This document shows positions 56,861 to 57,505 of a DNA stretch of 64,000 nt, one piece after another. A model generated the notes under the pieces. That model did not search any database, was not told the DNA's origin, and worked only from the letters and a program-made list of their open reading frames with translations. The stretch is taken from the NCBI RefSeq assembly GCF_021458635.1, contig NZ_JAIRDQ010000001.1:248001-312000 (forward strand), in the 5' to 3' direction. Every line of letters starts with the position of its first letter. The first letter of the stretch is position 1. The translations under genes were made by a program, and so were the position numbers. The stretch comes from Bradyrhizobium monzae (lineage in GTDB: Bacteria; Pseudomonadota; Alphaproteobacteria; Rhizobiales; Xanthobacteraceae).

Positions 56861-56889
56861 TTAACAGCAGCGAGCTTCCGACCTATATT
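56861..56889 (+). promoter_or_regulatory. Consensus-like sigma-70 promoter
   Basis: TTAACA (56861-56866) and TATATT (56884-56889) are separated by exactly 17 nt. It points toward the short ORF at 56925 and is one of the best promoter matches in the window. Confidence 0.6.
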
Positions 56890-56924
56890 GAGATCTCCCG
56901 CAATCAACGAAAGGAGGTGATCCA

Positions 56925-56969
56925 GTGTCTTTTACCAAGCGCTGTCACCTCGCTGGGATCGCCCGCTAA
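56925..56969 (+). CDS. 14-codon ORF behind an extreme Shine-Dalgarno (leader peptide candidate)
   Basis: The GTG at 56925 starts MSFTKRCHLAGIAR and stops at TAA 56967. Bases 56909-56925 (GAAAGGAGGTGATCCAG) are a perfect 17-nt complement to the 3' end of 16S rRNA, far longer than a normal ribosome-binding site. Spacing from GGAGG to GTG is 7 nt. A promoter lies 36 nt upstream and an intrinsic terminator 60 nt downstream, so the unit seems to be a free-standing transcript of about 170 nt. TCACCTC inside the ORF (56945-56951) can pair with GAGGTGA (56914-56920). I do not recognise the peptide family. It may be a leader peptide, a small RNA or a ribosome decoy. Confidence 0.5.
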   Translation: MSFTKRCHLAGIAR

Positions 56970-57030
56970 GCTTTGAATAGAGGCTTGGCATCGGGGCGCT
57001 CTCAGCCCTGGACCAGCGAGCAAGAAATCG

Positions 57031-57066
57031 GGCGCGACGGGTCTCCCCGCCGCGCCTTTTCTTTTT
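57031..57066 (+). terminator. Intrinsic terminator of the short unit
   Basis: GGCGCG-A-CGGG, loop TCTC, CCCG-C-CGCGCC (57031-57056) forms a GC-rich hairpin with one mismatch, followed by TTTTCTTTTT (57057-57066). It is a strong plus-strand terminator. Confidence 0.85.
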
Positions 57067-57115: not shown

Positions 57116-57301
57116 TCAGAAGCCGAAGTTGGCGAGCAAGGACGGGCGTTTGCCACGGCGGCTCTCGACAATGCGCTCGCCGCCACTCTCGACCGAGCTG
57201 CCGTAATAACGGTGATGACCGGCCTGGTCGTGCAGATCAGCAGGTTCGGACTTCCCATCCCGCCGCGCGTCGCAGATGATCTTGATGGTCTGACCCGACA
57301 T
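57116..57301 (-). CDS. Small hypothetical protein (61 aa)
   Basis: The product MSGQTIKIICDARRDGKSEP... is hydrophilic and basic with no signal or membrane helix. GGAGG 7 nt before ATG 57301 and a plausible codon pattern support it over the overlapping plus-strand frame (57065-57316), which lacks a good start. I do not recognise a family. It lies alone between the terminator at 57031 and the YCII gene. Confidence 0.45.
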   Translation of the reverse strand: MSGQTIKIICDARRDGKSEPADLHDQAGHHRYYGSSVESGGERIVESRRGKRPSLLANFGF

Positions 57302-57505
57302 TGCCGCCTCCGATGAGCCTCAACTGTTGTTGTGGCCATCAGTCGCCCCTTCTCCGGACGGCGTTCACTCTGCACCGCGGCAATCGGGTTTCAGGACCGT
57401 TTCGTCGCACACGCCGCGACGCAATACTTTAAGGTCGGCCGTTGTCGGTATCGGCGGCGACCATATTTGCTTCGGGCTGCGCGCCCAAAAACAAACGAGG
57501 TGAAG

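Follow-up and report, generated by a model that had tools for sequence, protein, structure and literature searches.

The question raised by this locus is why a short transcription unit of Bradyrhizobium monzae should place a ribosome site complementary to the entire 3' tail of 16S rRNA in front of an ORF of 14 codons. An earlier note on the stretch of DNA analysed here (64,000 nucleotides, hereafter the window) had described a promoter, a 17-nt Shine-Dalgarno (SD) sequence, a 14-codon ORF and a terminator, and direct reading of the letters agrees with all four. The features of the unit are the following.

Positions 56861 to 56889, plus strand: promoter, with TTAACA at 56861-56866, a 17-nt spacer and TATATT at 56884-56889, read directly from the letters.
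Position ~56896, plus strand: predicted transcription start, placed by the promoter position.
Positions 56909 to 56925, plus strand: extended SD GAAAGGAGGTGATCCAG, the full complement of the 16S 3' tail, overlapping the start codon by its final base, a G.
Positions 56925 to 56969, plus strand: 14-codon ORF MSFTKRCHLAGIAR, from GTG at 56925-56927 to TAA at 56967-56969, read directly from the letters.
Positions 56914 to 56951, plus strand: predicted closed-state hairpin over the SD and the start codon, pairing GAGGTGA (56914-56920) with TCACCTC (56945-56951) and CAGTG with CGCTG, with its loop at codons 3-5.
Positions 56945 to 56968, plus strand: stretch that can pair with overlapping parts of the SD, through TCACCTC (56945-56951) or GGGATCGCCCGCTA (56955-56968), both 16S-tail-like pieces.
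Positions 56952 to 57006, plus strand: body helices, GCTGGGA (56952-56958) with TCTCAGC (57000-57006) and CGCCC (56960-56964) with GGGCG (56994-56998).
Positions 56965 to 56974 with 56980 to 56989, plus strand: stop-codon helix within the body, covarying in the genus alignment.
Positions 57011 to 57018, plus strand: GACCAGCG, invariant, predicted to pair with CGCTGTC (56940-56946) in the fold with the SD kept open.
Positions 57029 to 57066, plus strand: intrinsic terminator, a GC-rich hairpin and TTTTCTTTTT, from letters and fold.

The 16S tail of the genus reads CTGCGGCTGGATCACCTCCTTTC (the pattern was found in 5 of 6 genus genomes and the flanks of 4 loci were read), so that all 17 nucleotides of the SD are complementary to it. 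Our assembly of 8.28 Mb holds 11 AGGAGGTGATC sites, against 1 for the reversed control pattern; none of the 11 is a 16S gene, and a single one, that of the window, combines the full complement with a start codon. A 174-nt stretch folds 4.15 standard deviations better than its shuffles, none of 200 of which equals it. Upstream lie an OprB porin gene and a tRNA-Gly on the minus strand; downstream come a short convergent ORF, a YCII protein and a UvrD-like helicase. The convergent ORF (57119-57304, minus strand) faces the terminator and has no Pfam match; by eye, a similar ORF (IICDARR..DLHDQ..HHRYYGSS) stands at the same place in 7 Bradyrhizobium loci. Because the window has no close downstream gene on the plus strand, the unit is free-standing, as the earlier note had proposed. 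As one part of a joint reading that we hold tentatively, we take it for an independent RNA gene, about 170 nt long, that would be both sRNA and mini-mRNA.

The unit is well kept among near relatives. BLAST finds its 206 nt in 34 of 36 genomes of the genus, our own included, and all 34 loci retain both the ribosome site and the ORF: the extended SD is exact in 32 and carries GATCTA for GATCCA in 2, a single C-to-T change that leaves a G-U pair with 16S. The residues KRCHLAGIAR followed by a stop occur in 34/34 of these loci (and KRCHLAGIAR in 30/30 genus loci fetched by the SD core alone), with the 30 nt of codons 5-14 identical in every one of the 34, while codons 3-4 vary within the genus. 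The SD-start core is present in 164 of 195 genus genomes, as a single copy per genome row with a match. In one Bradyrhizobium genome a second, partial match of 37 nt to the promoter and 5' part lies ~2.3 kb from the full unit (G016:C629:2972-3008). Of 70 genus sequences, 53 contain the promoter TTAACA-n-TAnnnT by a strict regular expression (51 at the 17-nt spacing), and 10 of the remaining 17 have TTAACG at that place.

The same 70 sequences end the ORF with TAA (33), TAG (28) or TGA (9) and never with TGG, G standing at the second base in 9 and at the third in 28. For structure, these sequences, picked by SD and ORF motifs, were thinned to 59, and three of unusual length (L029, L122, L236) were left out, giving an alignment of 56 rows. 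Its stop-codon helix shows changes on both sides at 6 of 10 pairs, including the one at the third base of the stop, where 18 of 56 sequences have exchanged A-U for G-C, and the whole structure has 9 such pairs, a score reached by none of 500 shuffles; these counts, like those of the stop codons, come from related sequences, so the events are not independent. Since the stop varies yet stays a stop, inside a helix that compensates, both the RNA structure and the stop codon are kept. The SD hairpin offers the opposite picture: 13 of its 15 pairs never vary in the 56 sequences, in which GACCAGCG too is invariant, and no covariation is possible in a hairpin that never varies in sequences picked by those very motifs. 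The checks that had been suggested thus came out divided. Covariation was found in the stop-codon helix and the SD hairpin proved invariant; start, stop and ORF length are kept, and the expected synonymous change is missing from codons 5-14, where 34/34 loci lack any nucleotide difference.

How could such a site be used? In the minimum free energy fold of the RNA (-78.9 kcal/mol), GAGGTGA is base-paired to TCACCTC and the start codon is hidden, so that this prediction for the whole RNA contains the proposed pairing of the ribosome site with its own ORF. When the 17 nt are kept unpaired, the fold has -67.6, a cost of 11.3 kcal/mol, and CGCTGTC (56940-56946) pairs with GACCAGCG (57011-57018). 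Mutually exclusive pairings, also proposed earlier, are likewise supported. The other half of the suggested switch fared less well: GGATC (56956-56960) does face complementary letters in GATCC (56919-56923), and this is the core of the strongest isolated SD duplex in the window (GGGATCGCCCGCTA, 56955-56968, about -16.7 kcal/mol), though neither of the two computed whole-RNA folds uses it; it may still form. With the 16S tail, the full SD forms a duplex of -31.2 kcal/mol, the 10-nt AAGGAGGTGA one of -16.1 and AGGAGG alone one of -9.2, values for isolated strands that exclude the ribosome's own contributions. A plain AGGAGG would not pay for the opening because -9.2 falls short of the 11.3 kcal/mol required; the 10-nt AAGGAGGTGA does pay on paper, and the hairpin alone is therefore no explanation for the full length of the site.

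At the curated Rfam threshold, three tRNAs are the only matches over the window. With an E-value threshold, the covariance model RF01867 (CC2171) matches the unit over its full length (model positions 1-159) at 43.2 bits and E 3.8e-8, below its gathering cut-off of 75 bits, and it gives one match in our whole genome (E 3.0e-7). The closing helix of CC2171, which joins codons 3-5 to the sequence preceding the terminator, is broken in the window, where the cmscan alignment has several non-standard pairs. It is near certain that the window RNA is a divergent relative of CC2171 and not a filed member, which overturns the earlier statement that no family had been described. CC2171, filed in Rfam as a Caulobacter sRNA, is said to come from the work of Landt et al. 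in 2008.

Of 20 loci from elsewhere, 4 pass the RF01867 cut-off (L036, L045, L049, L060); among 14 weaker loci judged by E-value, 13 match at 30-70 bits and L077 does not match. A class-wide sample gives matches at E<=0.01 in 56 of 240 genomes, 7 of them above the cut-off. Two of 14 named controls match, Caulobacter vibrioides and Deinobacterium chartae, one above the cut-off; the latter is a non-proteobacterial control, yet is matched by the CC2171 model. What recurs across Alphaproteobacteria is a module of AAAGGAGGTGATCCA, then GTG, ATG or TTG and a short ORF. Within the order, 83 of the 397 genomes searched carry its core 20-mer, while the reversed control gave 0; in a sample of the phylum the core is found in 37 of 398 genomes, all among the rows of our own class (about 135) and none in the roughly 263 rows outside it. 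A few metagenome-assembled genomes labelled Planctomycetes, Nitrospinota, Gemmatimonadetes, Delta- or Gammaproteobacteria also carry the core, and these bins may be mislabelled. Three loci in Planctomycete- or Delta-labelled bins (L077, L142, L174) have NTG-AC after the core instead of NTG-TC, with ORFs of 13-16 codons. Our joint reading, equally provisional on this point, also places the window RNA in an RNA type that is widespread in the Alphaproteobacteria, as its branch in Bradyrhizobium; CC2171 is the one described cluster of this type that was found.

A pattern scan of contigs yielded at least 116 loci and is the basis of no rate. The loci outside the genus were mostly fetched by patterns containing the SD, the TG of the start and the C of codon 2, so constancy at these letters is partly built in; the first base in each of these two codons was free. 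The 10 loci fetched by the covariance model vary more: 6 have the exact core, L180 has GGAGGTGGTCCAGTG, L184 and L186 have GGAGGTGGTCCGATG and L185 has GGAGGTGATCTCGTG. These last four match CC2171 and start with GTG or ATG, but their sites are altered (GGAGGTGGTCC, GATCTCG); since such loci escape exact patterns, the pattern counts are lower bounds. Two groups of loci depart from the common layout. In Azospirillum L106, L136 and L149, which are included in the counts of the clade "other", the full-length SD is the same, but the ORF behind it is longer, at 57-59 codons, and begins like a signal peptide; these loci may be ordinary genes. In Cellvibrionales, L113 (933-952, minus strand) and L148 (start of the locus) have the same extended SD followed by GTG-TCT, an ORF that enters a terminator-like hairpin and T run without a stop, as a non-stop mini-mRNA would, and a CCAGTG complementary to CACTGG.

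Is the ORF real across this family? Where any base was allowed before TG, the 116 listed loci have G in 95, A in 18, T in 3 and C in none, which a start codon explains best. The first base of codon 2 is T in 113 of them and A in 3; all 10 covariance-model loci have NTG-TC, including the 4 whose SD differs. Over 217 distinct sequences the start is GTG in 193, ATG in 22 and TTG in 2. TCN stands at codon 2 in 214 of them, with a C that the search patterns already contained. The ORF has 13-33 codons in nearly all loci read. Peptides fall into clades that we call KRCHL (Bradyrhizobium), SR (Rhodobacteraceae), SYE (Devosia), SHC (Methylobacterium, Microvirga, Bosea, Brevundimonas and others), SSE and other. 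Length is fixed in SR (18 codons, 34/34), KRCHL (14 in 40/40) and SYE (23 in 9/9), and ranges over 14-33 codons in SHC and 20-31 in SSE.

The internal partner of the SD is also a family trait. It often resembles the 16S tail, as CCTGGACCGTCGCCTCCG and CCTGGATTCTCGCCTCG in SHC-like loci and GTGGAGCAGCCTCTG in SSE. Against 200 dinucleotide shuffles each, such mimic pairing reaches p<=0.05 in 25/49 representatives of SHC (Fisher 3e-20), 9/19 of other (1.5e-7), 4/18 of SSE (2e-5), 3/4 of KRCHL (1e-3) and 0/3 of SYE, Fisher values that count related sequences as independent. The SR mimic, CTGG.CCCATCTCC, lies 3' of the ORF; its pairing reaches this level in 2 of 26 within 100 nt and in 12 of 26 (Fisher 1e-12) with a 125-nt stretch, which was picked after the SR element had been seen beyond 100 nt. 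The mimic carries a TGG that is read in frame 0 in SHC but falls out of frame in SSE and KRCHL; selection thus acts on the RNA. Ensemble pairing of the SD, computed for the first 25 sequences of the larger clades with 15 shuffles per sequence, exceeds the sequence's own shuffle median in 25/25 KRCHL sequences tested of 67 (0.86 vs 0.77) and in 15/22 SSE sequences (means 0.83 vs 0.66). It does so in about half or fewer elsewhere (SHC 14/25, SR 11/25, other 12/23, SYE 3/8), and the prediction that the SD is occluded in all clades was not borne out by these four.

Based on these results, we infer that this RNA probably senses or engages ribosomes rather than yielding a useful protein. Our leading reading, to which we give somewhat less than an even chance as a whole statement, is a ribosome-gated mini-mRNA and sRNA whose fold reports occupancy by the 30S subunit. 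At rest, the ribosome site and start codon would be paired with an internal imitation of the 16S tail. A 30S subunit would open this fold using much or all of its own tail, which is the reason we propose for so long a site, and the mimic segment would then stay unwound during translation of the short ORF, up to the point where the ribosome departs at the conserved stop. The two folds, closed when ribosome-free and open when occupied, would make the RNA a gauge of free 30S subunits. Against this reading count the 10-nt site that would already suffice for opening, the clades in which SD pairing does not rise above the shuffles, the lack of a significant mimic in SYE and the two stopless Cellvibrionales loci. 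Its output would most likely be another part of the RNA that is exposed or hidden, or, in Rhodobacteraceae, control of read-through into arfB. Transcription, translation and switching in cells are in this proposal predicted from the architecture, in which the site, start and stop are conserved, the site is complementary to the RNA's own ORF and one body helix covaries.

The rival that survives best, though we consider it unlikely, is an ordinary trans-acting sRNA that would pair with other RNAs through a seed such as a CCUCC-like anti-SD, possibly with a dual function, the ORF being secondary. A free-standing gene with a terminator, related to an Rfam sRNA, agrees with this, as does the anti-SD-like element that Rhodobacteraceae keep outside the ORF. 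What all clades have in common, however, is a 16S complement and a start codon and not a single-stranded seed, and both start and stop are maintained.

Somewhat less likely again is a 30S decoy, in which the extended site, together with structure in the entry channel, would park free 30S subunits and the ORF would merely end occasional translation. The 17-bp duplex of -31.2 kcal/mol is indeed longer than opening of the hairpin needs. Structure suited to blocking entry could be provided in SHC by a helix that begins at codon 3 (CATTGTC with GACAATGG); RNAalifold on 49 SHC representatives, with a poor alignment, returned almost nothing (-2.7 kcal/mol), and a compensated closing helix (CATTGCC/GGCAATG) was seen in L045 by eye only. 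However, a decoy has no need for a conserved stop or a clade-invariant ORF length, and titration of ribosomes from one gene copy would call for an extremely abundant RNA.

Neighbouring genes bear on a third rival. In Rhodobacteraceae, 32 of the 36 SR loci are followed by arfB (RF-1 domain) in the same orientation, no more than 325 nt from the SD in 28; the 4 others include L103, whose flank is just 241 nt. In 13 of the 32 the arfB start is at +201 to +208, and in L176 it lies ~25 nt past the T run of the terminator. A Vut_1 transporter gene is upstream in 34 of 36, and the RNA between Vut_1 and arfB (L063, L067, L176 and other SR loci) is a candidate ribosome-sensing leader of this ribosome-rescue gene. 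Elsewhere arfB is divergent on the left in 4 of 24 SSE loci, and 60 SHC loci have RNase R (6), RF3 (4) or IF-1 (2) as neighbours. Taken across clades these neighbourhoods are suggestive. A conserved neighbour as the target was rejected: neighbours differ by clade, and arfB is found in SR and, divergently, in those 4 SSE loci only. An attenuator, in which translation of the ORF sets terminator read-through into the next gene, draws on the co-directional arfB of Rhodobacteraceae. In the window, its terminator faces the convergent ORF, and the neighbours vary by clade (RNase R, RF3, IF-1, YaiI, purU-like). The earlier suggestion of a leader peptide or attenuator for downstream genes thus finds a possible place in Rhodobacteraceae and fails in the window; as a general account we regard it as improbable.

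As for the peptide itself, selection within the genus is not measurable because codons 5-14 are invariant to the nucleotide. Two other clades were used. In SR, codons 2-12 give a dN/dS of 0.62 in frame, against 0.63 and 1.11 when the frame is shifted by one and two bases, so no selection appears beyond the off-frame control; codons 13-18 evolve freely (1.05 in frame), with the length still 18 codons in 34/34. In SYE (8 sequences) it is 0.46 in frame vs 1.45 and 0.84 off frame, a weak sign of selection. The reading frame is kept in SR, the clade in which selection on the peptide is best measurable, and no such selection is visible there. No regulatory codon run was seen by eye, the peptides differing between clades. 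A functional micropeptide as the gene product is highly improbable: ten residues are identical genus-wide and SYE leans that way, yet the same ten codons are invariant even at synonymous sites, SR shows no in-frame advantage and beyond M-S the peptides differ from clade to clade.

Returning to the ribosome-gated RNA, a broader version of it is possible yet doubtful: that of an ancient ribosome-dedicated device of Alphaproteobacteria, made of a 16S-tail complement and its imitation, whose flip between self-paired and 30S-paired states would report free small subunits, and which would have been placed before arfB in Rhodobacteraceae and left stopless in two Cellvibrionales. If the RNA gauges free 30S subunits, it would give a direct handle on how bacteria perceive their ribosome supply, and would be a new kind of riboregulator, one responsive to the ribosome and not to a metabolite, temperature or codon supply. 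The arfB link makes the gauge reading testable by a simple reporter. Even under another mechanism, an anonymous sRNA family becomes one that is probably translated and ribosome-directed, and that reaches below the Rfam cut-off into Bradyrhizobium, Rhodobacteraceae, Devosia and Hyphomonadaceae. An exact transcript position can also be predicted for the laboratory strain USDA 110, which we take genome G811 to be: its core lies at 6,046,978 on the plus strand, with transcription predicted to start at about 6,046,962. None of the positions in Table 1 for B. japonicum BjsR1-BjsR10 falls there, and BjsR3 is ruled out as the same RNA by its coordinates.

Several known systems invite comparison. The parts seen of the open-access literature searched name for CC2171 no function, no full-length 16S complement and no ORF, and the Bradyrhizobium branch, the conserved start and stop, the full-tail complement and the internal mimic are likewise absent from them. 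Within that literature, therefore, the RNA family is known, and what is new is the branch, the conservation of start and stop, the full-tail complement and the mimic. CC2171 (RF01867) resembles the window RNA in the full-length model match, the 5' CAAC..GAAAGGAGGTGATCCAGTGTC, the 3' terminator hairpin and a similar length; unlike it, the window RNA has a broken CATTGTC/GACAATG long-range helix and a different ORF body and stop position. Two earlier Caulobacter ncRNAs, left unnamed there, are translated, according to the sections consulted of Schrader et al. 2014 (PMC4117421). The small aapA3 mRNA of Helicobacter pylori hides its own SD in a hairpin located within the ORF, as predicted here; however, aapA3 is a type I toxin-antitoxin mRNA with an antisense partner, described without an extended SD in the portions consulted (PMC6733600). 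The DUF1127 uORF attenuator of Sinorhizobium meliloti is alike in that a short ORF senses ribosome loading at its own start region; in the excerpts available it acts in cis on the next gene, whereas the window unit has no close same-strand gene downstream (PMC12218461). Finally, in Staphylococcus aureus, SD-aSD pairing extends toward the start codon, and cryo-EM of the 70S initiation complex shows this helix (PMC13009471, as far as its text was available). That system shares with the window RNA pairing beyond the core SD and a GUG start; it differs, going by the same portions, in involving two extra pairs in ordinary mRNAs of a different phylum, as against the whole tail in one dedicated RNA (PMC13009471). 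By analogy, the extended site of the window RNA would fit with pairing toward the start codon as seen on a real ribosome in S. aureus (PMC13009471, same portions).
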